NCBI GenBank assembly: GCA_012840485.1
Contig: DULG01000038.1
Coordinates: 1 to 62,918, forward strand
DNA length: 62,918 nt
Reading direction: 5' to 3'
Source of the DNA: Clostridia bacterium
GTDB lineage: Bacteria > Bacillota > Thermoanaerobacteria > Thermoanaerobacterales > Thermoanaerobacteraceae
Under the pieces are notes generated by a model, which saw only the letters and a program-made list of their open reading frames with translations, made no database searches and was not told where the DNA came from. The stretch's first letter is position 1. Each line of letters opens with the position of its first letter. Positions 25,866 through 62,626 of this stretch are shown here, piece after piece. The position numbers and the translations under genes are program-made.

Positions 25866-25867
25866 TA

Positions 25868-25884
25868 TGGCACGATATTTGCAT
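25868..25884 (+). promoter_or_regulatory. Consensus sigma-54 promoter of the galactitol-type PTS operon
   Basis: TGGCACGATATTTGCAT: the -24 box TGGCACG is perfect, the -12 box is TTGCA, and GG (25869-25870) and GC (25881-25882) are 10 bases apart. It begins 3 bases after the activator's stop codon. The upstream activator sites therefore probably lie within the 3' end of the activator gene. Confidence 0.88.
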
Positions 25885-25998
25885 TAGATATTTCTTAGAA
25901 TATTTGGTTGATTGACCTAAAAGATGGGGGTGGGAGTAGGGTATGCGTGGTGTTAATTTATAGAAGAAGAGGAAGTTATTGAAGGAGGAGGGTAAAAC

Positions 25999-35631: not shown

Positions 35632-38379
35632 TTGACAAACAAAGAGAAAGTATTTAATTTGGTTAAAGAATTATCACAGGATATCAATATAAAAGAGAAA
35701 AAAGGAGTTACTGCGCAGGAAATAGCCCAGAAATTAAATTTAAGGAGAAATGTGGCGAGCCATTTGTTGAACGAGCTATACAAAGAGGGCAAAGTGATAA
35801 AGATAAACACAAGACCTGTATACTTTTTGGATAAGGAAGTTTATGAGAAAAGGGCAAAAGAGTTTAAAGAAGCTTCAAAAGATTTGGGTGTTCCTGTAAA
35901 GAATTTTACAGAAGACCCTTTTACAAAGCTTATTGGATATAATGGGAGTCTTAAGGAGCAAGTAAAGTTGTGCAAATCAGCTGCTTCTTATCCACCTAAT
36001 GGTCTTCCTATTCTGCTCATCGGCAATACAGGAGTAGGTAAAAGCTATATTGCGCAGCTTATTTACGAATATGCTAAATCTATTGGTGCTATAGATGAAA
36101 ATGCTCCCTATGTAATATTTAATTGTGCTGAATACGCCAATAATCCTGAACTACTTTCCGCAAACCTTTTTGGCTATGTAAAAGGAACATTTACAGGTGC
36201 TGATAAAGACAAACCCGGCCTTTTAGAAGAAGCGAATGGAGGATATTTGTTTTTGGATGAGGTTCACAGGCTTCCGCCAGAAGGGCAGGAAAAACTGTTT
36301 CTATTTTTGGACAAAGGCATATTTAGAAGGCTTGGTGAGACAGGCAATTGGAGGACAGCAAAAGTAAGGTTTATATTTGCTACAACTGAAGACCCTGAGC
36401 AAACTCTTACAAAGACTTTTTTAAGAAGGATACCATTAGTTGTAAACATCCCCTCTCTTTATGATAGGCCTTTACATGAAAGGTTACAACTTATCTATAA
36501 CTTTTACAAAAATGAGGCCAAAAATTTGGGAATGGATATTTTAATAAGCAAACAAGTGCTGAATGTTCTTCTTAAGACCAAAATATCCGGCAACATTGGC
36601 AAACTTATAAATGTTATAAAATACAGCTGTGCTCAAGCCTATAACCATGTCATAAGAAAGAAAACAAATATATTGCGAATCCATCTATATGACCTGCCAA
36701 GAGAGATGCAGGCTGATTTAGATATAATAAAAAGTAATTTTCATTTTAACGGAGTGTTAATTTCTCACAATAGAAAAGATGAAGATCTGGTATGGGATGG
36801 AGAAGACAATAAAGATGTATATGAAGTAGCAAACAAAATATTTGAGCTATTTGAGAAATATAGTAGTAAGGAAATAAATGCTGATAGTTTTAAAAAAGAT
36901 TCTTTGATTTATTTAAATGAGTTTACAGATAAAATAATTTTTAAAAACGATAACACGTATATAGATTCAATAGTTTTCAATGCTATTAAAAACGTAGTAG
37001 AAAATGTGTTAAATATAATACAAAATATGTACGGAATTAAATATTATGGCAATTCAGTTTTGGTATTGACTCATTTTATTAATTATTTATTAAGCGATGT
37101 AACTTACGAGAAGTATTCTGAGAATATAAAAGTGGTATTGGGAGTTTTGAAAAATGTTTTTCCCAAAGAGTTTATAATAGCTAATAAAATAGTTGAACTT
37201 ATTGAAGTTAACCTGGACGTCAAGCTCAACCAAATAGCTGTAATTTATTTTACACTTTATATTAAAAGCTTAAATAAAAGTGACAATACTAATCTCATAA
37301 ATTCTATAATAATAGCCCATGGTTATTCAACTGCCAGTAGCATAGCTAGTATCGCCAATAGGCTTTTGGGACAGTTTGTTTTTGAAGCTTTTGATATGCC
37401 AATTGAGATGTCGACACAAGAGATTATGCTAAAAGTTCAAGATTATTTAAAAAATATAGATACCTCCAAAGGGATTATTATATTAGTAGACATGGGTTCT
37501 TTAGAGGAGATATACAAGTCTTTGACTGACATTGTCGAGGGAGACATAGCAATTATTAATAATATCACTACTCAATTGGCTTTAGACGTTGGGAATAGAA
37601 TATTGCAAAATCAACCACTAGAGCAAATTGTAACAGAGGCAATACAGAAAAATAGTATTAGTCATAGGTTGATTAAATCTCAAAAACACAAAAGAAATGC
37701 TATTCTTACAACATGTATTACGGGGATTGGGACTGCTGTTAAAATAAAAGACCTTTTACATCAATGCCTTGCCAGCGAAGATGTTGAAATAATTGCATAT
37801 GATTACAATAGGCTTAAAGGCAACGGCATAAAAGATGAGGTATTCAAAAATTTCAATGTCAAGCTAATTATTGGTACAGCAGATCCTGGCATAAAGGAAA
37901 TACCTTATTTGTCTTTAGAAGATTTAATTACAGGGAATGGTAACGTATTCTTGAGTAAGGTCTTAAAAGGATTTGCAGATGATGTAACTATAGAGCGAGT
38001 TAATCAAGCAATAGTTAAGCTTTTCTCTTTACAGAATGTACTTCATTATCTTACTATATTAAATCCCGATAAAATAATTGATCAGGTTGAAAAAGCTGTC
38101 AGTGATTTAGAGTTACATCTTGGATTTAAATTTTCAAATGACTTAAAGATAAGTTTGTATATACACATGAGCTGCTTGATTGAAAGGTTAATAATGAAGG
38201 ATCCTATTACTTCTTATGAAAAACTAAAAGAATTTGAACAGTGTCATAGACACTTTATAGATTGTGTAAAATCTTCTTTTAGTGTAATAGAAGAAATCTA
38301 TAAAGTAGAAATTCCTACATCAGAGATAGGGTTTATATATGACATAATCCGTTCTAAAGTAAAAAATGTGGCTGTTTAG
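35632..38379 (+). CDS. Second LevR/ManR-type sigma-54 activator
   Basis: A 915-residue activator. It has a winged-helix N-terminus (about 1-68) and an AAA+ domain with Walker A GNTGVGKS (131-138). The sigma-54 loop reads GTFTGA (185-190) instead of the usual GAFTGA, and Walker B is YLFLDE. Next come a first PRD, an EIIA-Man-like domain (IIAHGYSTASS), a region with CITGIGTAVK and a C-terminal PRD (QCHRHFIDCVKSSF). TTG start behind AAAGGGGAG. It differs from the 22935 activator in its DNA-binding end and in lacking a C-terminal fructose-type EIIA. It is followed directly by a sigma-54 promoter that drives an ABC transporter cassette. Confidence 0.9.
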   Translation: MTNKEKVFNLVKELSQDINIKEKKGVTAQEIAQKLNLRRNVASHLLNELYKEGKVIKINTRPVYFLDKEVYEKRAKEFKEASKDLGVPVKNFTEDPFTKLIGYNGSLKEQVKLCKSAASYPPNGLPILLIGNTGVGKSYIAQLIYEYAKSIGAIDENAPYVIFNCAEYANNPELLSANLFGYVKGTFTGADKDKPGLLEEANGGYLFLDEVHRLPPEGQEKLFLFLDKGIFRRLGETGNWRTAKVRFIFATTEDPEQTLTKTFLRRIPLVVNIPSLYDRPLHERLQLIYNFYKNEAKNLGMDILISKQVLNVLLKTKISGNIGKLINVIKYSCAQAYNHVIRKKTNILRIHLYDLPREMQADLDIIKSNFHFNGVLISHNRKDEDLVWDGEDNKDVYEVANKIFELFEKYSSKEINADSFKKDSLIYLNEFTDKIIFKNDNTYIDSIVFNAIKNVVENVLNIIQNMYGIKYYGNSVLVLTHFINYLLSDVTYEKYSENIKVVLGVLKNVFPKEFIIANKIVELIEVNLDVKLNQIAVIYFTLYIKSLNKSDNTNLINSIIIAHGYSTASSIASIANRLLGQFVFEAFDMPIEMSTQEIMLKVQDYLKNIDTSKGIIILVDMGSLEEIYKSLTDIVEGDIAIINNITTQLALDVGNRILQNQPLEQIVTEAIQKNSISHRLIKSQKHKRNAILTTCITGIGTAVKIKDLLHQCLASEDVEIIAYDYNRLKGNGIKDEVFKNFNVKLIIGTADPGIKEIPYLSLEDLITGNGNVFLSKVLKGFADDVTIERVNQAIVKLFSLQNVLHYLTILNPDKIIDQVEKAVSDLELHLGFKFSNDLKISLYIHMSCLIERLIMKDPITSYEKLKEFEQCHRHFIDCVKSSFSVIEEIYKVEIPTSEIGFIYDIIRSKVKNVAV
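38240..38254. promoter_or_regulatory. Candidate upstream activator site (palindrome)
   Basis: A perfect 15-base palindrome, AGTGTCATAGACACT, lies inside the last codons of the activator gene, centred 160 bp upstream of the -24 GG of the sigma-54 promoter. The same GTGTC-N3-GACAC core recurs at 58005 at a similar distance from a -24 element. Enhancers for LevR-type activators normally lie at such distances. Confidence 0.45.
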
Positions 38380-38382
38380 AAA

Positions 38383-38419
38383 GTGCCAAGTGATATTACA
38401 CTGCTTGGCACATTTTTTG
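38383..38419 (+). terminator. Terminator hairpin shared with the sigma-54 promoter
   Basis: GTGCCAAG (38383-38390) pairs with CTTGGCAC (38404-38411), followed by ATTTTTT. The 3' arm and T-run are also the -24 box and spacer of the next promoter. Confidence 0.7.
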
Positions 38420-38422
38420 CAA
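38405..38422 (+). promoter_or_regulatory. Sigma-54 promoter of the ABC/amino-sugar cassette
   Basis: TTGGCACATTTTTTGCAA: GG (38407-38408) and GC (38419-38420) are exactly 10 bases apart, and the -24 TGGCAC and -12 TTGCA boxes are near-perfect. A purine-rich leader of about 230 bases with no supported gene runs from here to the lipoprotein gene at 38652. Confidence 0.85.
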
Positions 38423-38651
38423 CTACCATTAAGTTATAAGTGAAAAATATTGAAACCACGTGTAAAAGATTTGGGCAAAAATAAGAAGAAATAACTATTA
38501 CTAAAGGAGGGGGATAAAAAGTTACTTTTGTTAAACGATTAAACAGATTTAAAGAGGGAAGGGGGAAGATCTGGAGGAAAAGGCATAAAACTTGGAAAGG
38601 AAAATATTTACTAAATTATAGTAAACTCTAGGATAGGAGGAAGTTGTTTAA

Positions 38652-41829: not shown

Positions 41830-42840
41830 ATGAAAATATTTGCAGGCTATGATTGCGGTGGTAGTAAAACAAAATGTATTCTTGCCGATGAAAATGGTGA
41901 AATTTTAGCCAGTGCTGTAGAAGGACCTTCTAATTTTTTGTCATGCGGCTATGAAATAGCAAAAAAATCCATAGAAGAATGCACCAGACAGGCTTTATTA
42001 AAGGCGGGTTTTAAGGAGAATAAAAAAATATACAGTGCATATGTAGGGTCTGCTTCCGTTGAGCTTTTCTCAAAAAATGAAAGAATATATAATTTTTATA
42101 AAAGTTCTATTAACACTGAATATTTAGGCATAAACAATGATGCTTATATAGCCTGGTATGGTACGACATTTGGGAAGACCGGTATTATTTCAATATCTGG
42201 CACAGGAGCAGTTACCTATGGAATATGTGAGGATGGAAGATGGAAAAAAGCAGGTGGGTGGGGATATCTTGTAGAAGATGAAGGATCAGGTTATTCCTTG
42301 GGCAGAAAGGCGCTACAGCTTGCAGTAAAGTCATATGATGGAATAATAGATAAAAATAAATTTGAAAAAGAAATAATGGAGTTTTTTTCTTTAAAATCTA
42401 TGAAGGAGCTTACGCCTATGCTGTACCAAGACCCTTACAATGGTGTAAGAATTGTAGCCTCTGCAGCTAAATGTCTCTTTAAATTATTTAATGAGGATTA
42501 TAGTTTAGCAATGGAGATATTAGAAGAGGCTACTTCTCAGATTGCAGACACCATATATGCCGTTTACTCTTATTTAGATTTAAAAAATCAATTTATTAGG
42601 ATAGGAGTAGCGGGAGGAATATTTTACGCGGGAGGTAACCGCCTGTTAGAAATGTTGGATAAAAAATTAAGAGAACGAGGAATGGAAATGTTTCATCTAA
42701 CTTTCCCTGAAATACTTCCAGAAGTATCGGCTTTGCTTCTTGCATATAATCAACTAAGGTGTGAAGATTATAAAAAAGCAGAGCAAACTATTATGCAACA
42801 ATTTAAAAAGTCCATTGAGGTGAAACAAAATTGTGTATGA
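41830..42840 (+). CDS. BadF/BadG-type ATPase, probable amino-sugar kinase
   Basis: A 336-residue actin-fold protein of the BadF/BadG/BcrA/BcrD family, which includes eukaryotic-type N-acetylglucosamine kinase and MurK. The ATP loops are AGYDCGGSKTKCILAD at the N-terminus, ISGTGAVTYG near 120 and GVAGGIFYAGG near 260. WGYLVEDEGSGYSLGRKAL is the conserved sugar-kinase stretch. It most likely phosphorylates the amino sugar brought in by the ABC transporter. It overlaps the next gene by 10 bases, suggesting translational coupling. A paralogue lies at 58221. Confidence 0.82.
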   Translation: MKIFAGYDCGGSKTKCILADENGEILASAVEGPSNFLSCGYEIAKKSIEECTRQALLKAGFKENKKIYSAYVGSASVELFSKNERIYNFYKSSINTEYLGINNDAYIAWYGTTFGKTGIISISGTGAVTYGICEDGRWKKAGGWGYLVEDEGSGYSLGRKALQLAVKSYDGIIDKNKFEKEIMEFFSLKSMKELTPMLYQDPYNGVRIVASAAKCLFKLFNEDYSLAMEILEEATSQIADTIYAVYSYLDLKNQFIRIGVAGGIFYAGGNRLLEMLDKKLRERGMEMFHLTFPEILPEVSALLLAYNQLRCEDYKKAEQTIMQQFKKSIEVKQNCV

Positions 42841-44132
42841 TGGCAGGGTACGGAGAAAAAGTGATTACCCCTCAACTACTAGGGCCTATGGCAGGATATG
42901 ATAGCAGAGAGGAGAATGCTAAAGGAATACACGACGACTTATATGCTAGATGCCTGATTTTAAAGATAGAGAAAAAGGCCGTTGTTTTGATTTCACTTGA
43001 TGTATTAGGAGTAGATGAATGCCTTATAGAAATGATTAAGAGTGCAATAATGGCGGTTGATAGGGAGGTAGAGAAGGAAGGCATATTTGTGTGTGCTACT
43101 CATACGCACAGTGGGCCTTCGGCTATATTTTCAAATAAAGTGACTTTTGATTTAAATTATGTTAATTTTGTTACTTTACAGTGTCGCGAAGCTTTTTTGG
43201 AAGCGATGAATGACATTAAAGAGGCAAGTATATATCATGGAACAAAAGATATTTTTGGTATTGCATCAAAAAGAAACATTTATGACCCACAAAAAAGTCA
43301 GGAAGGTATTAAATGTAAGTTTCTTAAAATAGAGAAAAATGACAGGGAAATAATGGTTATTAATTTCCCGTGCCACTTGACGGTGTTAGATGAAGGTAAC
43401 TTTTACTATTCTAAAGATTTAGTATATGGTTTAGAATTGGAATTAAAAGAAAATGGCAATAATAAGTTTCTATTCATAAATGGTGCTGCAGGAGACATAA
43501 GCACAAGATTTTGTAAAAAGGACGCCTCCTTTGAGGAAACCGAAAGATTGGGACGATTGCTTGCAAGAGAAATATTAAAAGAAAAAACTGAAATGCATAA
43601 AATCGACTCTTTACAGCCTTTTACCGTTAAAGAAACTTCCTTTCTAATAAAATATAAGGGAAATCTTTCTGAAGAAGAGAAAAAGGCAAAAAAAGCTCAG
43701 ATAGAAGACCTTCTTACTCAAATAAAAGATAAAAGGGCGCGAAGAGACCTTGAATCTGCGTTGTTAGTTCTTAATCGTCCTAATAGAGACTTTAGTAAAA
43801 TCCCTGGGGTCCTTAAATTAGAAGAGGGCTTTTTCAAAAGGATAAAAATGAGTTTAGCAATAATGGGACAGCTCGTTTTTATAGGAGTTCCTTTTGAGAT
43901 TTACTACAGTACAGGCATTAAAATTGAAAATATTTTAGAGAGAAAATATAGACACAGCATCGTGTTGATATTTGGATATTGTGGAGGATATGAAGGATAT
44001 ATTCCACCGGCGGAGAATTTTTCACAAATCTCTTATGAAGTTATTGCTTCACTTTTTGAGATGGATGCAGAGAAGAAACTACTTGAGGCTATTGAAAAAA
44101 TGGTAACAGAGATTGGTGGTGAGAATTTATGA
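42831..44132 (+). CDS. Neutral/alkaline ceramidase-like protein
   Basis: A 433-residue protein resembling the N-terminal domain of neutral/alkaline non-lysosomal ceramidases: it starts AGYGEKVITP, has DLYARCLIL and the zinc-type motif CATHTHSGPS. True ceramidases are longer (about 650 residues) and secreted. This one has no signal peptide and sits in a sugar cassette, so it is probably an amidase acting on an N-acyl amino sugar or peptide (inference). GAGGTGA lies 7 bases before TTG 42831; ATG 42837 is the alternative. It overlaps the next gene by 4 bases (ATGA). Confidence 0.7.
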   Translation: MCMMAGYGEKVITPQLLGPMAGYDSREENAKGIHDDLYARCLILKIEKKAVVLISLDVLGVDECLIEMIKSAIMAVDREVEKEGIFVCATHTHSGPSAIFSNKVTFDLNYVNFVTLQCREAFLEAMNDIKEASIYHGTKDIFGIASKRNIYDPQKSQEGIKCKFLKIEKNDREIMVINFPCHLTVLDEGNFYYSKDLVYGLELELKENGNNKFLFINGAAGDISTRFCKKDASFEETERLGRLLAREILKEKTEMHKIDSLQPFTVKETSFLIKYKGNLSEEEKKAKKAQIEDLLTQIKDKRARRDLESALLVLNRPNRDFSKIPGVLKLEEGFFKRIKMSLAIMGQLVFIGVPFEIYYSTGIKIENILERKYRHSIVLIFGYCGGYEGYIPPAENFSQISYEVIASLFEMDAEKKLLEAIEKMVTEIGGENL

Positions 44133-52152: not shown

Positions 52153-53058
52153 TTACAATTCAAGATTAGGATATGACTCCTTTAATATTCCAATGAATGC
52201 TCTAGCAGGTGCAGACAAGATTTTGTCTTTCTTTTGTACATAATAAAGCTTTCTTATGAATTTTATATCTCTAAATTTCAAACCTATAAGCCCGCCAAAA
52301 GCTATTTCTTTTTCGATAGTATTTTCTGGAATAATTGACACTCCAAGACCTGCCTCAACAGCCTGCTTAATAGCTTCTATGTTTCCAAGTTCTATTGTTT
52401 TTTTGATATCTATTCCCCTTCCTGTAATTATTTTTTTGACAAAGGACATAGTTGCTGATTCTTTATTAGAACATATAAAACATTCTTCTTCAAGTTCCTC
52501 TATATTTATATTATTTCTATCCTTCCATCTATGAAAAGGTGGAATTATGAGAACTAATTTCTCACTGCAGAAAGGAACGCATATAAGACTCTTATTCTCA
52601 ATAATTTCTCCATTATCCGCTATAAGAGCAAAGTCAATCACATTGGTATGAATATATTCCAGTATTTTATGATAAAAATTAACATGCAAATTTATGTAAA
52701 TGTTTGGATATTTAGAAAGATATTTTTTTAATAACTGCGGTATACGATATACACCTATCGAACCTGTTGCACCGAAAGAAAGAATTCCCCGGTTTAGCGA
52801 TTCCATTTCGCATATTTTTGCTAGATAATCTCTTGTAAGATTAAGTACAGTTTCGGCATATTCAAGAAAAAGTTTACCATTTTCATTTAAATATACTTTT
52901 TTTCCTATCCTATCAAATAATTTGCAGCCCACATAGTTTTCAATTTCTTGTATATGCTTTGTAACTGTAGGTTGAGAGCAAAATAATTCTTCTGAAGCCT
53001 TTGTAAAACTCTGATTCTTAGCCATTGCACAAAAGGTTTTTAGTTTTTCAATATCCAT
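52153..53058 (-). CDS. LysR-family transcriptional regulator
   Basis: A 301-residue LysR-type regulator. It begins MDIEKLKTFCAMAKNQSFTK with the helix-turn-helix KASEELFCSQPTVTKHIQEI, and has the periplasmic-binding-like effector domain from about residue 90. It is transcribed away from the DASS transporter gene, the classic layout for a LysR protein controlling its neighbour in response to the transported acid. The shared 130-bp spacer contains a palindrome that overlaps its own -10 region, suggesting autoregulation. Confidence 0.9.
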   Translation of the reverse strand: MDIEKLKTFCAMAKNQSFTKASEELFCSQPTVTKHIQEIENYVGCKLFDRIGKKVYLNENGKLFLEYAETVLNLTRDYLAKICEMESLNRGILSFGATGSIGVYRIPQLLKKYLSKYPNIYINLHVNFYHKILEYIHTNVIDFALIADNGEIIENKSLICVPFCSEKLVLIIPPFHRWKDRNNINIEELEEECFICSNKESATMSFVKKIITGRGIDIKKTIELGNIEAIKQAVEAGLGVSIIPENTIEKEIAFGGLIGLKFRDIKFIRKLYYVQKKDKILSAPARAFIGILKESYPNLEL

Positions 53059-53077
53059 AGTTTATCACCTCCATTTT

Positions 53078-53100
53078 AATTATAACATTTCGTTATAATT
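53078..53100. promoter_or_regulatory. Palindromic operator between lysR-type gene and transporter
   Basis: AATTATAAC (53078-53086) and GTTATAATT (53092-53100) are exact 9-bp inverted arms around a 5-base centre. The TTATAAC half-sites fit a LysR T-N11-A type box. On the minus strand the palindrome supplies TATAAT, a likely -10 for the regulator. Confidence 0.65.
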
Positions 53101-53117
53101 ATTACTATATTATTGAA

Positions 53118-53146
53118 TTGTATAATAAATAAACATGATATATAAT
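53118..53146 (+). promoter_or_regulatory. Sigma-A promoter of the DASS transporter
   Basis: TTGTAT (53118-53123), 17 bases and TATAAT (53141-53146) lie about 40 bp ahead of the transporter's ATG and 18 bp after the palindrome. Confidence 0.5.
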
Positions 53147-53188
53147 GAGACTGAAAAACCAAATAAAAATTTGTGAAGGGGGAAAAGT

Positions 53189-54670
53189 ATGAATATTTTA
53201 ACTGCAGGAATAGAAGGAAAAGAAAAGACAAACTTTGAAAAGTGGCTTTCATATCTTGGGGTGCCAATAGCAGTTATAATTTTCGCGTTACTTTTTACGA
53301 TGAGAACTCCCACTGGATTGACGCTTCAAGGGAAATCGGCGATTGCTGTGTTTTTGGCGGTGTTCGTGCTGTGGGTATCACAGGCTGTTCCAACGTTTGT
53401 TTCATCCCTCATTGCAATAGTATTGTTAACGCTTACAAGTGCATGGGATGAAAAGTCAGTACTTGGAGTATTTGGATATGATGTAATTTGGTTGATGATA
53501 TCTGCATTCATAATTACTTCTGGAATGACAAAAACAGGACTTGCTAACAGGGTTGCTCTTTGGCTTGTTTCTACTTTTGGAAAGACTGCACGTCGTGCTC
53601 TTATTTCTTTGATAATAGCTAACTTTGTAATTGCATTTATTGTGCCTTCTACAACAGCAAGAGCTGCTCTGATGCTCCCCATAGCATTGCTTGTTGCACA
53701 GGCATATGGTGCTCAACCTGGCAAAAGTAATTTTGGGAAATTAATAATGATACAGGAATTGCAAGTAAATAATATTTCCACAACTGCTATTTTGACTGCA
53801 ACCGCACCTCAAATTATGGCAGTTGGAATTATAAAAGACCTCACCGGATATAATGTATCGTGGTCAGAATGGTTTATTGCTTCACTTCCTGTTGCCTTGT
53901 GTACAATGATAATATCATACTTAGTAGGTCTTATGATATTTGAGCCAGAAGTGAGTGTACCGGTGATGGAAGATCGTGGCAATGACGGTATAGGGAAGTT
54001 AAAGGAACAACTTCGTAAGATGGGACCTATGACAAAGGAAGAGAAAAAAGCCCTGTTTATATTTTGCCTTACCGTATTCCTGTGGGCAACAGATAAGTGG
54101 CATGTTCAAATGTTTGGCTTTAAAATCAGCCTTGTAATGGTTGCGATTATATCTGCTACACTGTTTTATCTACCTTTTATAGGACTTATTAGTTGGAAGG
54201 ACACAAAAATTCCATGGGACCTTATGATATTCAGTGCTGGTGCCTATGCAGTAGGTATGGCATTAGATAAATCTGGTGCAGCAGCATGGGCATTAAAGGC
54301 TGTATTTGGCAGTTTAGACCTTGGTAAGATAGGATTTTTCCCATTATACATGATAGTTATATTTATTGCTATATTTAGCCATCTGGTGTTTACTAGTAAA
54401 ACAGTAAGGACAGCGATATTAATACCAGCAGTAATAGGCATTGCAAATGCTGCAGGAATAAATCCAATAGCTTTAGCGTTACCGGCGTCCTTTACAATTG
54501 CAGATTCAATTACCCTACCTCCTCACTGTAAACCCAATCTGATATTCTACAGTACCGGTTATTTCAGTGTGCTTGATCAATTCTTCTATGGGATGATAGT
54601 CCTCATAGGCAAGTGGCTATTGCTGGGTATAGCTTCATTGACGTGGTTCAAAATTATAGGGATATGTTAG
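53189..54670 (+). CDS. DASS-family (SLC13) anion/dicarboxylate transporter
   Basis: A 493-residue membrane protein with about 12 hydrophobic segments. The motifs FIVPSTTARAALMLPI and FTSKTVRTAILIP (two S-x-T/T-x-P-type anion loops of inverted repeats), and FTIADSITLPPHCKPNLIFY near the end, identify the divalent anion:Na+ symporter family. Substrates of this family include succinate, malate, tartrate and sulfate. It is divergent from the LysR regulator and followed by a secreted protein and a PGM-like enzyme, possibly one pathway. Confidence 0.85.
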   Translation: MNILTAGIEGKEKTNFEKWLSYLGVPIAVIIFALLFTMRTPTGLTLQGKSAIAVFLAVFVLWVSQAVPTFVSSLIAIVLLTLTSAWDEKSVLGVFGYDVIWLMISAFIITSGMTKTGLANRVALWLVSTFGKTARRALISLIIANFVIAFIVPSTTARAALMLPIALLVAQAYGAQPGKSNFGKLIMIQELQVNNISTTAILTATAPQIMAVGIIKDLTGYNVSWSEWFIASLPVALCTMIISYLVGLMIFEPEVSVPVMEDRGNDGIGKLKEQLRKMGPMTKEEKKALFIFCLTVFLWATDKWHVQMFGFKISLVMVAIISATLFYLPFIGLISWKDTKIPWDLMIFSAGAYAVGMALDKSGAAAWALKAVFGSLDLGKIGFFPLYMIVIFIAIFSHLVFTSKTVRTAILIPAVIGIANAAGINPIALALPASFTIADSITLPPHCKPNLIFYSTGYFSVLDQFFYGMIVLIGKWLLLGIASLTWFKIIGIC

Positions 54671-54688
54671 AAAAGGAGGAAGGGTACT

Positions 54689-55447
54689 ATGTTTAAAAAA
54701 ATAAAAGTGATATTATTAATGGCTATCTTTATATTATCAGTAGCTTTGACTTCCGTTTTATATGCTGCACAAAACCCGGATTTTAAAAGTTACAAAGAAG
54801 TTTTCTTACCTATAAATGAAAAAGATGCGAAACTTACCATTACAGCAGAAGAAGTTCCTGATGCAGCAGGTTACGTTTATTTATTTAGTACAATAAAAGA
54901 AGCAAAGCTTGAAGAAGTTCAAGCAGAGGAGAATGTCCTTGTAAATAATACGCCTGAAAAGAAAAAAATAGGAAGTGTTGATTGCCTTGCGTTTAAAGTC
55001 TTGGATAAGGAAAAGCCTATAAAACTCAAAGTATCCTTTATGGTGCCAAACTTTTATTCAATTAAAAATGAAGCAGCTGAGGAAAGTACGGGACCAGGAG
55101 GGACTTACAGAGTATCTTATTCTTTTACATGTCCTGTAGCTTCTGGTATTGATACTTATTCATTAAAAATCCTGTTACCAGAAAATAATGAAATATTGAC
55201 TGTTACTGCTCCTAAAACTTATGAAATTGGAATGGAAGGGAAAAACAGATATATACTTGTGAATATGAAGGGAAAAGAAGGCAAGAAAGGTCTTAGTTTT
55301 GCGGAATCTGTAAGTATGGATTTTGTAATAAAAAAGGAGAGTACAACCAAAAATATTTTGGTCTGGATTGTATCATTGGGAATAGCCGCAACATTTTTAG
55401 TATTTAATAAAAAACAATTAGGGGAAGAAGGGAAAGAGGTATCATAA
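54689..55447 (+). CDS. Secreted protein with C-terminal membrane anchor, unknown function
   Basis: A 252-residue protein with a signal peptide (hydrophobic stretch ending near SVLYAAQN), a beta-rich extracellular domain of about 190 residues, and one C-terminal membrane helix (NILVWIVSLGIAATFLVF) followed by a short basic tail. I do not recognise the family. It is sandwiched between the DASS transporter (18-base gap, AAAGGAGGAAGG ribosome binding site) and the PGM-like gene (no gap), so it probably works with the transporter at the membrane. Confidence 0.6.
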   Translation: MFKKIKVILLMAIFILSVALTSVLYAAQNPDFKSYKEVFLPINEKDAKLTITAEEVPDAAGYVYLFSTIKEAKLEEVQAEENVLVNNTPEKKKIGSVDCLAFKVLDKEKPIKLKVSFMVPNFYSIKNEAAEESTGPGGTYRVSYSFTCPVASGIDTYSLKILLPENNEILTVTAPKTYEIGMEGKNRYILVNMKGKEGKKGLSFAESVSMDFVIKKESTTKNILVWIVSLGIAATFLVFNKKQLGEEGKEVS

Positions 55448-56695
55448 ATGAGGAAAAAGAAATGCATAATGGTTATAGGAGATGGGCTTGGAGATAGACC
55501 GGTTGAATTGTTGCAAGGTAAAACACCTCTGGAAGTAGCAAAAAAACCCGTTATAAATATGCTTTCATTAAATGGTATGACTGGGCTTGTACACCCGTAC
55601 AAGCCCGGCATAAGAGTTGGTACAGATGTTGGACATCTTTGTATATTCGGGTATGAACCAGAAAAAGTTTATAGTGGGAGAGGTCCAATTGAAGCATTTA
55701 GTGCGGGAATAGAACTTAAAGCTGATGATGTTGCTTTTCGTGCTAACTTTGCTACTGTGAGTGAAGATTTGACGGTTATAGATAGAAGAACAGGTCGTAT
55801 AAGAGAAGGTACAAGATTGTTGGCGGAGAGTTTAAATGGTATAGAAATAGACGATTGTAAAATATTTGTTAAGGAGTTGACAGAACATAGAGCAGCAGTT
55901 GTGATAAGGGGAGAAGGTTTAAGTGATATGGTAACAGACACAGATCCAGGAACGGCACATGAGGGAGAAAAAGTTAAAAGACCTCTTCCTACAGAAAATA
56001 CGCTAGAAGCAGAAAAAACTGCAAGGGTATTATGGAAATTTCTTATGCGAGCTCATGAGATATTAAAAATACATCCTGTCAACGTAGAAAGGCAAAAAAA
56101 TGGTCTCTTTCCTGCTAATTTTATCATAACCAGGGGTGCAGGTAAGTTAAAGAAAATAGAAAAAATTACAGATATTTTTAAAGTCAAGGCAGCATGTATT
56201 GCAGGAGATGAGACAATACTTGGAATAGGGAAAATGTGCGGTTTTGATGTATTTACCAGTAACAAATTTACAGGGAGTTTTGATACTGATTACAAGGGCA
56301 AAGCATTGATGGCGCTTCAAAAAATAAATGAAGGGTATGACTTTGTGGTAGTTCATGTAAAAGCTACAGACCTTGCTGGCCATGATAACATACCTTTCAA
56401 AAAAGTAGAGGTGATAGAGAATATAGAAACTATTTTTTCTCTTCTTTATTCAAATATAGATAGATTAAATACATATTTATGTTTAACTGCTGACCACACA
56501 ACCCCGTGTTCTGTAAGAGACCATACCTGTGATCCAGTTCCTGTATTTATATGGGGGAGTGATGTTAGAAAAGATGGTATTCAGGAATTTGGAGAAGAAT
56601 ATATAAAGAGCGGTTCTCTGTCGGGATACACTGCAAAAGATGTATTTTATACACTCATGGATTTCATGGGATATACTGAAAAATACGGCGCTTAG
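55448..56695 (+). CDS. Archaeal-type cofactor-independent phosphoglycerate mutase (ApgM family)
   Basis: A 415-residue member of the alkaline-phosphatase superfamily closest to archaeal ApgM. It has GDGLGDRPVELLQGKTPLEV at the N-terminus (metal and phosphate site), TDVGHLCIFGYEP, YSGRGPIEA, and the metal-binding end CLTADHTTPC. It would interconvert 3- and 2-phosphoglycerate. Bacteria with this type normally also have a main glycolytic mutase, and the position behind a dicarboxylate-type transporter hints at another phospho-acid substrate (inference). Confidence 0.8.
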   Translation: MRKKKCIMVIGDGLGDRPVELLQGKTPLEVAKKPVINMLSLNGMTGLVHPYKPGIRVGTDVGHLCIFGYEPEKVYSGRGPIEAFSAGIELKADDVAFRANFATVSEDLTVIDRRTGRIREGTRLLAESLNGIEIDDCKIFVKELTEHRAAVVIRGEGLSDMVTDTDPGTAHEGEKVKRPLPTENTLEAEKTARVLWKFLMRAHEILKIHPVNVERQKNGLFPANFIITRGAGKLKKIEKITDIFKVKAACIAGDETILGIGKMCGFDVFTSNKFTGSFDTDYKGKALMALQKINEGYDFVVVHVKATDLAGHDNIPFKKVEVIENIETIFSLLYSNIDRLNTYLCLTADHTTPCSVRDHTCDPVPVFIWGSDVRKDGIQEFGEEYIKSGSLSGYTAKDVFYTLMDFMGYTEKYGA

Positions 56696-56707
56696 AGGTG
56701 ATTTTTA

Positions 56708-57991
56708 ATGGAACTAAAATTTTTCGGGGGTTCTGGAGAGTATGGAAGGGCATGTTTTGCAGTGTTAAGTGAGCATAAAAACATACTTCTAGACTGTGGT
56801 GTTAAAAGGATACAGATTAAAAACAAAGTTGGTGAATATCCTCTGATTGATGGGGAGCTTATTAAAAATATAGATTATGTATTTTTATCCCATGCTCACG
56901 AAGACCACTGTGCTGCTCTTCCACTTCTTTATAAATTGGGATACGATGGATATATTTATTGTACTGAAGAGACAGCAATACAATCGAGAGATAGCATAAA
57001 AAAATGGATAAATACTGTACTCCAAAATAATGGAGCACTTCCTTTTAATTTATCTGATGTAGATAAGGTAAAATATCGTACAATTACATTGGGTAAATCT
57101 ATTATTGAGAAAAATTTCGAAGTTGAGGCAGGAATGAGTGGTCACATGGTAGGTGGAGTATGGTTTAAATTTAGGCTTGATAGGAAGAAAATCTTTTATT
57201 CAGGAGATTATTGTTTTGATTCTATTCTTTTAAATTATGAAGTGCCCCATGATAAGTGTGATATAGCAATTATAGACGCTTCATACGGGGATGACAATAC
57301 TAGGCAGGAAGAATATTGGGACAGAATTTACAATAAAATTAAGGAAACAGTGACAAGAGGGGGAAAAGCATTACTTCCAGTGCCTGCCCGTGGTAGAGGT
57401 GTGGAGATACTTCTTTTATTGACACAAAAACCTCTATTAATAAGAGAGAACAGAATAGAAATTTATGTAGAAAAAAATATATTAGATGCAGTTAAGGAAG
57501 TCAAATGCAGTCAGAACTGGCTTAAAACATCTGCAAGGGAATATTTTGAAAACTTTAATTTGGCTTTGATAAATGTAGTTAGCTCAAAAATTGAAAGAGA
57601 GAAGATAGTAAGAAGCGAAGGTCCAGCTGTTATACTCTGTACAGATGGGATGATATCATCTGAAACCTCTCTTTATTACTTTGAAAGTATCAGTAAAAAT
57701 GAACTAAATACAATAATTCTTACAGGATATCAAGCAGAAGGAACTATTGGTAAAAGGATATTAAGTGATGAGGGACGCAAAGAGTTAAATGTAAAATGTG
57801 AAGTTGTGAACATAAGGCATAAAGTGCATCCAGGGTTCAACGATTTACTCATTCTCTTGGATTCAATAAAACCCGATAATACACTTTTAGTGCATTGCGA
57901 ATTTGAAATATGTAAAAATCTCGTGCCTCTTCTTAAAAAACACGGTTATAATTCCAATTGCTTTATGCCGGGAGAATTTATAAAGGTTTAA
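56708..57991 (+). CDS. Metallo-beta-lactamase-fold beta-CASP nuclease-like protein
   Basis: A 427-residue MBL-fold protein. The zinc motif is LSHAHEDHC (His62, His64, Asp66, His67), with a later Asp in YSGDYCFD. The beta-CASP region includes PARGRG and GYQAEGTIGKRIL, seen in CPSF-73-like RNA-processing nucleases, and the last His occurs in LLVHCE. It might process RNA. Co-transcription with metabolic genes (12 bases after the PGM-like gene) leaves a hydrolase role open. Confidence 0.78.
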   Translation: MELKFFGGSGEYGRACFAVLSEHKNILLDCGVKRIQIKNKVGEYPLIDGELIKNIDYVFLSHAHEDHCAALPLLYKLGYDGYIYCTEETAIQSRDSIKKWINTVLQNNGALPFNLSDVDKVKYRTITLGKSIIEKNFEVEAGMSGHMVGGVWFKFRLDRKKIFYSGDYCFDSILLNYEVPHDKCDIAIIDASYGDDNTRQEEYWDRIYNKIKETVTRGGKALLPVPARGRGVEILLLLTQKPLLIRENRIEIYVEKNILDAVKEVKCSQNWLKTSAREYFENFNLALINVVSSKIEREKIVRSEGPAVILCTDGMISSETSLYYFESISKNELNTIILTGYQAEGTIGKRILSDEGRKELNVKCEVVNIRHKVHPGFNDLLILLDSIKPDNTLLVHCEFEICKNLVPLLKKHGYNSNCFMPGEFIKV

Positions 57992-57997
57992 ATAAAT

Positions 57998-58111
57998 TTG
58001 TGCAGTGTCACAGACACATTGCAAAATTTTATTGAATTTTTGATTAGTATCATATTTGGCTGTTCGTATGAAGTTATATTAGGAGAAAAGAGAGATAATT
58101 TGGTTGTTTAG
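57998..58111 (+). pseudogene. Remnant of the 3' end of a LevR-type activator gene
   Basis: QCHRH encoded at 58003-58017 (CAGTGTCACAGACAC) matches QCHRHF near the C-terminus of the 35632 activator. The last codons before the TAG at 58109 read YEVILGEKRDNLVV, against YDIIRSKVKNVAV at the end of that activator. The pieces are in different frames and the middle is shortened, so this is a relic. The terminator hairpin that follows is also homologous. The rest of the gene is missing: the beta-CASP gene ends just upstream. Confidence 0.75.
58005..58017. promoter_or_regulatory. Candidate upstream activator site (palindrome) in the relic
   Basis: GTGTC-ACA-GACAC is a perfect palindrome centred 128 bp upstream of the -24 GG at 58139. 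The same core lies at 38241-38253 ahead of the module 2 sigma-54 promoter. Confidence 0.45.
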
Positions 58112-58112
58112 A

Positions 58113-58150
58113 GCATGTCAAGTAGTACTACACTACTTGGCATGCTTTTT
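58113..58150 (+). terminator. Terminator hairpin overlapping a -24 element
   Basis: GCATGTCAAGTAGT (58113-58126) pairs with ACTACTTGGCATGC (58132-58145) over 14 bp with one T-G pair, followed by TTTTT. It is the counterpart of the hairpin at 38383. Confidence 0.8.
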
Positions 58151-58154
58151 GTTA
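58137..58154 (+). promoter_or_regulatory. Sigma-54-like promoter with altered -12 box
   Basis: TTGGCATGCTTTTTGTTA has a good -24 box (TTGGCATG) and the right 10-base spacing from GG (58139-58140), but the -12 box reads TTGTT instead of TTGCA. It is the counterpart of the promoter at 38405 and precedes the kinase and mannose-type PTS genes. Activity may be reduced by the change in the GC step. Confidence 0.5.
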
Positions 58155-58220
58155 TATATAAATAAATAAAATAATAAGCCAAAGTTTTATTAATATGAAG
58201 CAAGTAAAGGGGTTGAAAAA

Positions 58221-59207
58221 ATGTTTTTCCTTGGAGTAGATGGAGGAGGAACAAAAACTAAATTTGCTCTTTTTAATGACCAGTTAAAAGTATGTGGTAC
58301 TTTTGATACAACCACATCCCATGTAACCCAAGTAGGGAAGGAAGGTGTAATTAAAGTTTTACAATCTGGACTAGAAAATGTACTTCAAGAAGCAAAAATA
58401 TGTAAAGAAGAAATAAAATATGTAGTTTTAGGGATGCCAGGTTATACAGAAATCAAAAGTAACGATGCACAAATTGAAGAAGCAGTGGCGAGTGTTTTTA
58501 ATTTTACAAATTACTACATTGTAAATGATGCTGAAGTAGGATGGGCAGGAGCACTTGCCTGTCAACCGGGTATTAACATAGTGGCAGGAACTGGTTCTAT
58601 CGCTTTTGCAGTGGATGTGGAAGGGAGAAGGGAAAGAATTGGAGGTTGGGGAGAATTTATAGGTGATGAGGGAAGTGCTTATTGGATTGCAAAAAAAACA
58701 TTAGAAGGGTACAGTAAACAGAAAGATGGGCGATTACTTAAAACAGTTTTGGTAGATATAATTGATAAAAAATATGGCATAAAAGATAAATTCGAAATAA
58801 TTGATATAATGCACAATCAATATAAATTAAAGCGAGATAAAGTTGCAGAATTATCTTTATGTACATTTGCTGCAGCACAGAGAGGATGTAAATATTCAAT
58901 AGAAATTTTTGAAAAGGCGGCATATGAGCTTTTTTTACATGTGGAGGGAATATTAAGAAAAACAAAATATTCGGATACAATTTTAGTCTCATATGTAGGG
59001 GGTGTTTTTAAAGCTGGGGATTTTGTGTTACAACCTTTAAAAACTTTTTTAAGCAAATTAAATGACAAAATTGTATTACTTCCTCCCAAGATGGAGCCTT
59101 GTTTCGGGGCAGCATTTTATGCTTACTTAAAGTATAAAAGTTTAAATCCGACAGAGGAATTAATTGATACACTGGTGCAGGAAATCAGGAACTACTTGAA
59201 AAATTAG
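58221..59207 (+). CDS. BadF/BadG-type ATPase, probable amino-sugar kinase (second copy)
   Basis: A 328-residue BadF-family kinase. LGVDGGGTKTKFALFND begins the ATP site, GINIVAGTGSIAFAV is the second phosphate loop, and WGEFIGDEGSAYWIAKKTLE and SYVGGVFKAG are the other shared segments. It is a distant paralogue of the kinase at 41830, having the same order of motifs but different sequence. N-acetylglucosamine kinase or MurK-like activity is the best guess. It lies between the sigma-54-like promoter and the mannose-type PTS. Confidence 0.82.
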   Translation: MFFLGVDGGGTKTKFALFNDQLKVCGTFDTTTSHVTQVGKEGVIKVLQSGLENVLQEAKICKEEIKYVVLGMPGYTEIKSNDAQIEEAVASVFNFTNYYIVNDAEVGWAGALACQPGINIVAGTGSIAFAVDVEGRRERIGGWGEFIGDEGSAYWIAKKTLEGYSKQKDGRLLKTVLVDIIDKKYGIKDKFEIIDIMHNQYKLKRDKVAELSLCTFAAAQRGCKYSIEIFEKAAYELFLHVEGILRKTKYSDTILVSYVGGVFKAGDFVLQPLKTFLSKLNDKIVLLPPKMEPCFGAAFYAYLKYKSLNPTEELIDTLVQEIRNYLKN

Positions 59208-59262: not shown

Positions 59263-59736
59263 TTGCAAAATATAGTTTTAGCAAGGATAGACGATAGATT
59301 AATACATGGGCAAGTGGCGGTAACGTGGTCATTTTACGTTGGGGCAAATGTAATAATTGTAGTAGATGATGAGATAGCAAAGGATCCTACACAGCAGATA
59401 TTACTGGATTTAGCAGCTCCTCAAGAAGTAGTGACGCGCTATTTTACAGTAGCTGAAACGATAGAAAAAATACCTAAAGCGGCTCCACATCAAAAAATAT
59501 TTCTTATCGTCCGAAATGTAAATGTTTTAGTCCAGCTTGTTGAAGGAGGAGTGCCAATAAAAGAAGTAAATATTGGGAATATGCACTTCAAAGAAGGGAA
59601 AAGACAAATAACTCTTACTGTGTGGGTTGATGAAAAGGACATTGAGGCTTTCAAAAAGTTAAATAGCTTGGGGATAAAATGCGAGATAAAAAGAGTGCCT
59701 TCTGAGAAAGGCAAAGATATTATGGAATTAATATAA
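59263..59736 (+). CDS. PTS mannose-family EIIB component
   Basis: A 157-residue EIIB of the mannose/fructose/sorbose family. The phosphorylation site is His15 in ARIDDRLIHGQVAVTW, and INIGNMHF-like and SEKGKDIMEL segments are typical. It accepts phosphate from the EIIA encoded at 61324 and passes it to the sugar moved by EIIC/EIID. TTG start behind AAAGGAGATGATG. First PTS gene of a full B-C-D-A set. Confidence 0.9.
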   Translation: MQNIVLARIDDRLIHGQVAVTWSFYVGANVIIVVDDEIAKDPTQQILLDLAAPQEVVTRYFTVAETIEKIPKAAPHQKIFLIVRNVNVLVQLVEGGVPIKEVNIGNMHFKEGKRQITLTVWVDEKDIEAFKKLNSLGIKCEIKRVPSEKGKDIMELI

Positions 59737-59747
59737 GAGGTGTGAAT

Positions 59748-60506
59748 ATGTTAATAAAATCTCTGTTATTAGCCTTGTATGCTGGACTTGCTGAGATTGA
59801 TGGAAATAATACGCAGCTAAAAATTGGACGCCCTCTTGTTGCTGGCCCAATAGTAGGACTTATATTAGGAGACGTGGAAAAAGGATTGATTGTTGGAACA
59901 GTTTTAGAAATGGTAGGATTAGGTATGATTGGTTTAGGAGGTGTCTCTCCTCCCAATATTGTCATTGGAGGGATTTTAGGAACAGCTTTTGCAATAACGA
60001 CAGGAGTGACACCAAAAGTTGCTGTGTGCTTGGCTATTCCCTTTGCTATGTTAGCCCAATTGTTAATAGTAAAAATTTACAAAAACTGTTGTTGGTTTGC
60101 CCGTAAAATTGATGAGTACGTTGAAAAAGGCAATATAAGAGGGATAGAACTTGTACATCTTTCCGGAATTATTCCTTTATTCATTTTTTCTGGAGGGATT
60201 GTATTTTTGACCTTTTATTTTGGTGCAAATATGGTAGAAAAGCTAGTAAAATTATTACCGCCTGTAATAATAGGGGGACTTGAAGTTGCTGGTGGTATGA
60301 TGCCAGCGGTGGGTTTTGCGATGCTTTTAAAGGTTATGCTAAGGAAAGAATATTTTCCTTTGCTATTATTGGGTTTTGTACTTATTGCGTATTTTAAACT
60401 TCCTTTAACGGCAGTTATAATTATGGCACTAATTATTGCAGTGTATACTTACTTTAAAAGGAGTTTGAATAAAGGCGACGGAGGAGCAATAAATAATGGT
60501 ATATAA
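59748..60506 (+). CDS. PTS mannose-family EIIC component
   Basis: A 252-residue membrane subunit (AgaC/ManY type). AEIDGNNTQLKIGRPLVAGP, then IVGLILGD is the family signature, followed by GTVLEMVGLGMIGLGGVSPP. It forms the membrane channel with EIID. ATG 59748 behind AAGAGGTGTG is preferred over the in-frame GTG at 59742. It overlaps the EIID gene by 11 bases. Confidence 0.9.
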   Translation: MLIKSLLLALYAGLAEIDGNNTQLKIGRPLVAGPIVGLILGDVEKGLIVGTVLEMVGLGMIGLGGVSPPNIVIGGILGTAFAITTGVTPKVAVCLAIPFAMLAQLLIVKIYKNCCWFARKIDEYVEKGNIRGIELVHLSGIIPLFIFSGGIVFLTFYFGANMVEKLVKLLPPVIIGGLEVAGGMMPAVGFAMLLKVMLRKEYFPLLLLGFVLIAYFKLPLTAVIIMALIIAVYTYFKRSLNKGDGGAINNGI

Positions 60507-61287
60507 TCCAGATGATAGAAAATTAACAAAGAGAGATTTATATAAAATAGCGTGCCGTTCATTATTTCTACAAGCCTCCTTTAATTATGAAAGAATGCAA
60601 GCTACCGGTTGGCTGTACAGTATTTTGCCTGCTCTGAAAAAAATTTATAAAGATAACGCTGACGAGTTAAAAAGAGCCATGAAAAGTCATCTTGAAATTT
60701 TTAATAGTCATCCTTTTTTAGTTCCCTTGATTTTGGGTATCATAGCTTCTATGGAAGAAAAAGGTGAAAATAGGGATACAATTAAGCGAGTGAAGAGTGC
60801 ATTGATGAGCTCTCTTGGGGGTATTGGCGATTCTATTGTGTGGTTAATGATATTTCCCATATGTGCAGGATTGGGAATTTCTCTGGCTGTACAAGGTAAT
60901 CTTTTAGGACCTATACTCTTTTTGATTTTATTCAATGTTGTACATTTCATATTGATATTTGGAGGAATAAAGTACGGTTATAGAGAAGGCTTAAATAATT
61001 TAACCTCCTTAAAAACTTATACTAAATTTATATCTTCTTTCGCTTCTATAATTGGCCTTATAATGGTAGGAGCTTTGATTGCCTTGTATGTAGACATCAA
61101 AACTCCTGTTGTGATTAAGTTGGGCAAGATTGAGATTTTAGCCAGTAATGGAATTTTAGATAATATTTTGCCGTTAATATTTACATTCTTTGTATACTGG
61201 CTGTTTAAAAAGGGACTATCTTCCAACAAAGTGATAGGAATAACTATATTGCTTGGAATTATCTGTAGATATCTAGGCATTCTTTAA
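60496..61287 (+). CDS. PTS mannose-family EIID component
   Basis: A 263-residue membrane subunit of the ManZ/AgaD family. It opens LTKRDLYKIACRSLFLQASF, then NYERMQATGW, and has SLGGIGDSIVW and VHFILIFGGIKYGYREG. EIID is unique to mannose-type PTS and sits with EIIC in the membrane. The presence of separate B, C, D and A subunits marks a complete, intact transporter. Confidence 0.9.
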   Translation: MVYNPDDRKLTKRDLYKIACRSLFLQASFNYERMQATGWLYSILPALKKIYKDNADELKRAMKSHLEIFNSHPFLVPLILGIIASMEEKGENRDTIKRVKSALMSSLGGIGDSIVWLMIFPICAGLGISLAVQGNLLGPILFLILFNVVHFILIFGGIKYGYREGLNNLTSLKTYTKFISSFASIIGLIMVGALIALYVDIKTPVVIKLGKIEILASNGILDNILPLIFTFFVYWLFKKGLSSNKVIGITILLGIICRYLGIL

Positions 61288-61323: not shown

Positions 61324-61734
61324 ATGGTGAGATTAATTGTGACAGGTCATGGGAAATTTGCAAGTGGATTAATTAATGTAATAGAGGTCATAGCGGGAAG
61401 ACAGGAAAATTTAATTGCTATCGAATTTGCTAGTCAGGATTTAGAAGAGTATATGGGAAAAATAGAAAAGGCTATAAAAGAGGCTATAGATAATGGGGAG
61501 AGTGTGATAATACTGACTGATTTAATAAGTGGTACGCCCTTTAGAATATCTTCTTTTCTCAGTGAAAAATATAGCAATGTGCATGTAGTTGCAGGAACCA
61601 ATGTTCCCATGCTCATAGAAGCGGTATTTAAAAGAGGAAATTTTAAAAAAGCAGAAGAATTGGTCGCACATCTTATCAATATAGGGAAAAATGGTATTGA
61701 AAGTTTTGATAATTTGCTAAAGCAAAAAAAGTAG
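61324..61734 (+). CDS. PTS mannose-family EIIA component
   Basis: A 136-residue EIIA of the mannose family. His9 in IVTGHGKFASG is the phosphorylation site, and ILTDLISGTPFR and VVAGTNVPMLIEA are the usual loops. It is phosphorylated by HPr and also could signal to PRD-type activators. ATG start behind TTGGAGG. It lies 36 bases after EIID and 37 bases before the aldolase gene. Confidence 0.9.
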   Translation: MVRLIVTGHGKFASGLINVIEVIAGRQENLIAIEFASQDLEEYMGKIEKAIKEAIDNGESVIILTDLISGTPFRISSFLSEKYSNVHVVAGTNVPMLIEAVFKRGNFKKAEELVAHLINIGKNGIESFDNLLKQKK

Positions 61735-61771
61735 TTGGACAATACTTTCGATAGGGTGGAAGGTGAACAAA

Positions 61772-62626
61772 ATGCCATTAGTCAATACAAAAAAGATGCT
61801 TGAAGATGCAAAGAAAAACAAATATGCAGTAGGAGCCTTTAACATACACAACCTTGAAACATTAAAATCGGTGGTGAAAGCTGCAGCTGAGATGAAATCA
61901 CCTTTAATTTTACAAACGACACCTGGCACAATAAAGCATGCAGGAGAAGACTATATAGCTGCAATGGCAAAAGTCGCATCAGAAAAATACGACATACCAA
62001 TAGCACTACATTTAGACCACAGCAATTCATTTGACCTTGTTGTAAAATGCATAAGGGCAGGTTACACTTCAGTAATGATTGACGGCTCTGCCCTTCCCTA
62101 TGAAAAAAATATCGAACTGACAAAAAAAGTTGTCGAGGTAACTCATGCAGCAGGGGTGACTGTAGAAGCAGAACTTGGAAGTATAGTAGGCGTTGAAGAC
62201 GATATGTACGTAAAAGAAGATAAAAGTGCATTTACAGATCCTGAAATGGCAGCGGATTTTGTAGAGAAGACAGGAGTTGACTCATTAGCTATAGCAATTG
62301 GTACAGCACATGGGATGTACAAAGGAGAAGTAAAACTTGACTTTGAAAGGCTAAAAGAAATAGCGAGCTTAGTAGACATTCCATTGGTACTTCATGGTGC
62401 ATCAGGAGTTCCAGATGAGTTGGTAAAAAAAGCTATAGCACTGGGTATATGCAAATTAAACATTGCTACAGAATTAAAAATTCCTTTTGCAAATGCAATA
62501 AAAGAAGTATTTAAAAATAACCCAGATGAGAGCGATCCAAGAAAATTCCTTGCACCTGGAGAAAAAGCAATAGAAGAAGTCGTAAAAGAAAAAATAAAAC
62601 TTTTTGGCTGTGGTGAAAGAGCATGA
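61772..62626 (+). CDS. Class II ketose-bisphosphate aldolase (Fba/GatY/KbaY family)
   Basis: A 284-residue class II aldolase. LHLDHSNSFD contains the catalytic Asp82 and zinc ligand His83, with other ligands in the segments GTAHGMY and LHGASG; NIATELK binds phosphate. The length and the coupled PfkB gene (ATGA overlap) suit either fructose- or tagatose-1,6-bisphosphate cleavage. ATG 61772 behind GGAAGGTGAA is the start; an in-frame GTG at 61763 overlaps that site. Adjacent to an amino-sugar-type PTS, a GatY/KbaY role is attractive but not proven. Confidence 0.87.
   Translation: MPLVNTKKMLEDAKKNKYAVGAFNIHNLETLKSVVKAAAEMKSPLILQTTPGTIKHAGEDYIAAMAKVASEKYDIPIALHLDHSNSFDLVVKCIRAGYTSVMIDGSALPYEKNIELTKKVVEVTHAAGVTVEAELGSIVGVEDDMYVKEDKSAFTDPEMAADFVEKTGVDSLAIAIGTAHGMYKGEVKLDFERLKEIASLVDIPLVLHGASGVPDELVKKAIALGICKLNIATELKIPFANAIKEVFKNNPDESDPRKFLAPGEKAIEEVVKEKIKLFGCGERA

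Follow-up and report, generated by a model that had tools for sequence, protein, structure and literature searches.

The levanase operon of Bacillus subtilis, which is controlled by LevR, depends on sigma-54 and carries a UAS at -125 (PMC10864463). CelR of Bacillus thuringiensis and Clostridium acetobutylicum is also a LevR-type regulator, and several UAS lie upstream of the sigma-54 promoter of its PTS (PMC10864463). Comparative genomics of PRD-containing EBP regulons in the Clostridiales, covering the LevR, AtlR and CelR groups, has described their UAS together with a sigma-54 consensus, TTGGCATNNNNNTTGCT, and UAS-promoter distances of mostly 100-250 bp (PMC6615313).

Here we analyzed a window, the whole stretch of 62,918 nucleotides from a Clostridia bacterium, in which positions 57998-58154 precede a PTS operon and resemble the 3' end of a LevR-type activator gene at 35632-38379; the coordinates of the activator, both cassettes and the PTS operon all refer to the forward strand. 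We think it likely that 57998-58154 is a cis-regulatory cassette through which the 35632 activator acts, via two UAS, on the sigma-54 promoter of the PTS operon. As with B. subtilis LevR, the activator is a PRD/EIIA-man protein of the same architecture, predicted to control a mannose-family PTS, and its UAS lie roughly 100-150 bp before the -24/-12 promoter, a likeness judged by layout. Unlike in the B. subtilis system, the enhancer pair is embedded in coding sequence at the 3' end of the activator gene and is found again elsewhere as a free-standing cassette, and a terminator hairpin overlaps the promoter. The arrangement of several UAS before a PTS promoter is shared with CelR, although the CelR target is a cellobiose PTS, while the predicted regulon here differs from those described for the Clostridiales in joining an Aga-type PTS to an ABC transporter, Thermoanaerobacter not being named in the text of that study (PMC6615313).

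The PTS subfamily, a tagatose-bisphosphate aldolase and an AgaS-family isomerase are shared with the aga/gam operons of Escherichia coli. Those operons are controlled by the repressor AgaR, whereas here a sigma-54 activator is predicted and a BadF kinase is the first gene. Searches of literature titles and abstracts returned no pertinent report of a sigma-54 promoter overlapping an intrinsic terminator or of enhancers within coding sequence, which is weak evidence of absence.

The 35632 activator and the PTS operon

The gene at 35632-38379 encodes a LevR-type sigma-54 activator of 915 aa, whose predicted targets are both cassettes; its domain order is AAA+, PRD, EIIA-man, PRD. Its AAA+ domain is clearly recognized (PF00158, E 8e-41) and is followed C-terminally by two PRD stretches and PF03610. 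The GAFTGA-like loop reads GTFTGA; its T in second place is among the putative variants given in PMC3162934. The genome contains rpoN, and close orthologs of the activator (72-89% identity) occur in 11 other genomes of the family. A mannose-family PTS operon lies behind the activator in the relatives examined; this genome and Caldanaerobacter subterraneus (G003) are the exceptions, with an ABC-transporter/BadF cluster in that place and the BadF-PTS-aldolase operon a further 14-20 kb away. This amino-sugar cluster also contains, at 42831-44132, a gene for a 433-aa protein that matches the N-terminal part of neutral/alkaline ceramidase (PF04734, E 5e-18).

The operon behind 57998-58154 begins with a BadF/NagK-like sugar kinase (58221-59207), followed by a PTS EIIB of the galactosamine/N-acetylgalactosamine type (59263-59736, over the NCBIfam PRK09756 and PRK11425 cut-offs), an EIIC of the sorbose/mannose family (59742-60506), an EIID of the AGA family (60496-61287), an EIIA-man (61324-61734) and a tagatose-bisphosphate-type class II aldolase, GatY/KbaY-like and over the cut-off of the GatY model (61763-62626). 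In the orthologous operon of C. subterraneus, the next genes are a PfkB/LacC-like kinase (over the 1-PFK cut-off, below that of LacC) and an AgaS-family isomerase (below cut-off). Judged by its predicted proteins, this is an Aga-type PTS operon, and galactosamine or GalNAc would be its sugar. The EIID of the window is sister to a clade with the EIIDs of genomes G004 and G008 and those of the second PTS (PTS2) of the sister-genus genomes G013 and G017 (97/97; long branches). This placement beside an activator-adjacent/PTS2-cassette clade supports the view that the PTS operon represents an old target type of the 35632 activator and would now be separated from it.

Putative paired enhancer elements and a predicted promoter overlaid on a hairpin

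The first element, UAS1 (58004-58017, AGTGTCACAGACAC), is a near-perfect AGTGTC/GACAC palindrome and a predicted binding site for a LevR-type activator; the second, UAS2 (58046-58054, AGTATCATA), follows 42 bp on. Their counterparts in the activator gene lie within the QCHRH codons (38240-38253) and the SVIEE codons (38281-38289, AGTGTAATA). The palindrome AGTGTCAYAGACAC has exactly two copies in the 2.65-Mb genome, at 38240 and 58004, and a genome-wide search returned no additional copy at one mismatch. In degenerate notation UAS1 is AGTGTCAyAGACAC and UAS2 an AGTrTmATA element. Relative to the -24 box of the PTS promoter the two sites stand at -134 and -92, in keeping with the UAS of a LevR-type activator, which is expected to be a repeated or palindromic element about 80-200 bp upstream and conserved with the activator.

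A search of 61 genomes with the pattern AGTGTMAYWGACA-N25..30-AGTRTMAYA gave 16 matches, strictly confined to the 12 genomes with an activator ortholog and spaced 40-42 bp in every pair; the reversed pattern gave none in the same genomes. Part of this co-occurrence is trivial, since 10 of the 16 sites sit in the 3' coding end of the activator. The six non-coding pairs all stand before a PTS or ABC operon: the one at 58004, two in C. subterraneus (one before the ABC operon and one before the PTS operon) and one each in the three sister-genus genomes, G013, G017 and G019.

At the UAS1 embedded in the activator gene, codons F868-H874 show no synonymous change among 11 orthologs, against an expectation of approximately 7 to 22 pairwise differences per codon, and rank among the lowest 0.3-0.5% of windows, as a DNA-level constraint on an embedded site would give. 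The UAS2 codons alone show no unusual constraint (4-8% rank), and the coding-embedded sites also encode a conserved protein motif; both points weigh against the cassette reading.

Downstream of the UAS pair lies a predicted sigma-54 promoter, TTGGCATGCTTTTTGT (58137-58152), with a start predicted near 58163. It matches TTGGCAY-N5-TTGC with GG-GC spacing exactly except that the -12 is TTGT, as it also is at the C. subterraneus ortholog; the counterpart behind the activator, TTGGCACATTTTTTGC (38405-38420), matches exactly and would serve the ABC-transporter operon starting at 38652. The TTGT and a single departure in UAS2 (AGTA) may make the PTS cassette weak. Cassette promoters follow the layout TACACT-N2-TTGGCAy-N5-TTGy, in which TACACT (58129-58134 here) precedes TTGGCA at an invariant distance of 2 nt, across two genera, and reads as an inverted UAS half-site, AGTGTA. 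In the window, TTGGCAYNNNNNTTGY occurs exactly twice, at the two cassettes (0.25 expected), and the extended pattern TACACT-N2-YTGGCAY-N5-TTGY has exact matches in the 61 genomes at these cassettes only. Other LevR-type activators of the family have TACTAT-TTGGCAT before their promoters, which is related but not identical, and the TACACT feature may therefore be partly general rather than specific to the 35632 activator.

The promoter is overlaid on a terminator-like hairpin of 17 bp (58110-58148; -23.8 kcal/mol, z -6.8), the 3' arm of which holds the -24 box while its T-run forms the spacer between -24 and -12. Folding places a similar hairpin behind the activator gene (38383-38411), again overlapping the -24 box. 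Over nine hairpins 96.9% of pair cells pair, compared to at most 47% in slid controls, and changes on both sides affect 10 cells against 2.6 in shuffles, a value reached by none of 500. The element thus combines a stable hairpin, a T-run and compensatory changes, as an intrinsic terminator would. On its own it is a good terminator, and one could suppose that the region holds nothing more than the end of the upstream operon, with a stem resembling a -24 box by chance, a coincidental palindrome and a PTS operon read from some other promoter; sigma-70-like hexamers are as frequent here as in shuffles, which leaves room for such a promoter. We regard this as quite improbable, because TACACT and TTGGCA keep their fixed spacing even in the hairpin-less cassettes (G004 and the PTS cassette of C. 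subterraneus) and because the UAS pair accompanies the promoter in two genera. The hairpin-less cassettes have a separate terminator-like hairpin upstream, as read by eye. We infer that the hairpin terminates the upstream gene and that terminator and promoter, though overlaid, are each maintained independently.

Origin of the match to the activator 3' end

The first-pass annotation had read 57998-58154 as the relic of a third LevR-type activator that kept only its regulatory tail, and had proposed aligning 57990-58160 with 38230-38425. Aligned locally over 57992-58170 and 38201-38440, the two regions match significantly, with a score of 45 against a mean of 19.3 +/- 2.6 and a maximum of 32 in 500 dinucleotide shuffles. 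The signal consists of two blocks, the palindrome (58004-58017) and the hairpin/-24 block (58110-58152); each scores 32 when aligned alone, a value reached by 0 of 500 shuffles, which bears out the reported match to the downstream terminator and -24 element. The match is real but falls mainly on cis-regulatory elements. Aligned alone, the 'tail' ahead of the stop is borderline (score 22, with 23 of 500 shuffles as good), and the stretches between the motifs resemble the activator of the window no more than expected by chance (spacer z -0.1, middle z 0.6). The earlier observation is thus confirmed in part.

The same annotation had taken QCHRH and then YEVILGEKRDNLVV as one activator end. We find the QCHRH codons (from 58003) and the YEVILGEKRDNLVV codons (from 58067) in different frames with in-frame stops between them, so they do not form one broken reading frame without indels. 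When the 915-aa activator was searched by tblastn against 57991-58230 and the corresponding gap of C. subterraneus, only QCHRH/CHRH and noise were returned. LevR-type activators often stand directly before their own PTS operon, which suits a relic of a once complete third activator, as do the features listed below for a partial copy. We nevertheless hold such a relic to be highly improbable: UAS1 follows the stop codon of the preceding gene after just 12 bp, no further trace of an activator was found at this site or at the C. subterraneus ortholog, the non-motif sequence is unlike the activator, and no intact activator occupies this position in the genomes examined, which include only a single close ortholog of the locus.

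Alternatively, the 3' end of the 35632 activator gene may have been duplicated, with the enhancer, stop, terminator and promoter kept and the coding part either decayed or left out of the copy; its present function would be the same as proposed above. We give this possibility some, though clearly minor, weight. A possible remnant of the last 13 activator codons (VILGEKRDNLVV stop; 58073-58111), weak and out of frame with QCHRH, is identical to the activator of the window at 23 of 39 nucleotides in a gap-free, stop-anchored comparison, and a fraction of 0.0003 of anchored 39-mers match as well (DNA tails of G000, G002, G003, G004, G008 and G009 compared); its amino-acid profile score falls at 0.4% of anchored tails. 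This weak match outside the regulatory motifs hints at descent from an activator end. Stop codon and hairpin also have the same order and spacing as at the activator, and C. subterraneus has a second non-coding copy 0.6 kb behind its activator, where the adjacent promoter lacks a -12. There, at L017:13036-13700, the promoter directly behind the activator has TTAC in place of the -12, a C39-peptidase-like gene comes next, and a complete non-coding cassette follows before the ABC operon; the arrangement looks like an insertion that parted the activator from its target with a duplicated regulatory end.

A partial copy fits less well with the chance-level similarity of the UAS1-UAS2 spacer and most of the middle, with the two coding-like pieces in different frames and with the cassettes of relatives. 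The non-motif sequence of the 57998 cassette is closer to the PTS cassette of C. subterraneus (spacer z 2.9, P 0.006; middle z 2.3, P 0.024), in z-scores that omit the PTS2 cassettes of G013 and G019, whose UAS2 was not parsed. Since the likeness is to this cassette and not to the activator of the window, the PTS cassette most likely predates the split of this species and C. subterraneus. In G013, G017 and G019 the gene order is activator, PTS1, cassette, PTS2, aldolase. Their cassette consists of AGTGTAATTGACA, 42 bp on AGTGTCATA or AGTGTAACA, and then a hairpin with TTTACACTGCTTGGCATGCTTTTTGC (a close variant in G019), and it lies in the gap between PTS genes, outside any activator gene and without an activator coding tail. 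These distant cassettes come close to the case of a segment that never belonged to an activator gene, while the weak 39-nt tail match gives a partial copy some probability.

A strict protein scan of the genome contigs for the locus gave one match, C. subterraneus. There, unannotated reading-frame fragments (e.g. MLNNEGVPANYEADMEALITLCFLHYIGW) lie between DUF6905 and the PTS cassette at L002:5540-5700 and look like the remains of an unrelated gene. In the window, the interval between the DUF6905 genes and the cassette (52153-57991) holds a LysR regulator, a Na+/sulfate-type symporter, a phosphoglycerate mutase-like gene and an MBL-fold hydrolase. The symporter, mutase and hydrolase genes are absent from the orthologous place in C. 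subterraneus, so the block was acquired or lost directly next to UAS1.

Predicted regulon and other LevR-type activators

Under the reading we prefer, a cis-regulatory cassette served by the 35632 activator, the protein would bind UAS1 and UAS2, which lie about four turns of the helix from each other, and through looping of the DNA would open the sigma-54 closed complex at 58137-58152, so that transcription of the BadF kinase, Aga-type mannose-family PTS and aldolase operon starts near 58163. The hairpin into which the promoter is built would stop transcription arriving from the upstream metallo-hydrolase operon. The second copy of the cassette, which occupies the 3' coding end of the activator gene and faces the ABC-transporter operon, would activate that operon, and a single activator would thus drive two amino-sugar operons 20 kb apart, the ABC operon in cis and the Aga-type PTS operon in trans. 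Its activity may be controlled by phosphorylation of the PRD and EIIA domains, as in LevR and CelR (PMC10864463). Other LevR-type activators of the genome could in principle act at the PTS cassette, but judged by sequence the 35632 activator is the sole candidate whose distribution fits the sites. Two earlier proposals, that the retained 3' end works as enhancer and promoter of the PTS operon and that the 35632 activator may drive it in trans, are well supported as predictions by the UAS pair, the sigma-54 promoter, their conservation and this distribution.

More tentatively, the activator 3' end might be a portable enhancer-terminator-promoter cassette, copies of which placed new operons (PTS and ABC transporter) under the activator, an idea we would not yet favor. 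If it holds, about 180 bp would combine protein code, two enhancers, the gene's own terminator and the promoter of the next operon. The layout is economical, with an enhancer in the coding end of the activator and a terminator that doubles as -24 box, and the binding motif should be usable across the genus (with Caldanaerobacter) and its sister genus. Because such a layout can also mimic an activator 'pseudogene' wherever a copy of the cassette lies, a supposed activator relic in front of a sigma-54 operon is best examined for enhancer sites before anything else.

An enhancer embedded in the activator 3' end may be a common layout in the LevR-type family, judging the paralogs by promoter position: in other LevR-type paralogs a sigma-54 promoter stands roughly 110 nt past the stop. 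A second LevR-type activator in the window, at 22935-25865, contains AAA+, PRD, EIIA-man and EIIA-2 domains. Its stop codon abuts a sigma-54 promoter at 25866-25885 (TAG-TATGGCACGATATTTGCA; promoter from 25868), and a weak match to the RpoN-box part of Sigma54_DBD lies at its N-terminus (Pfam E 4.5e-4; over cut-off in the genome search).
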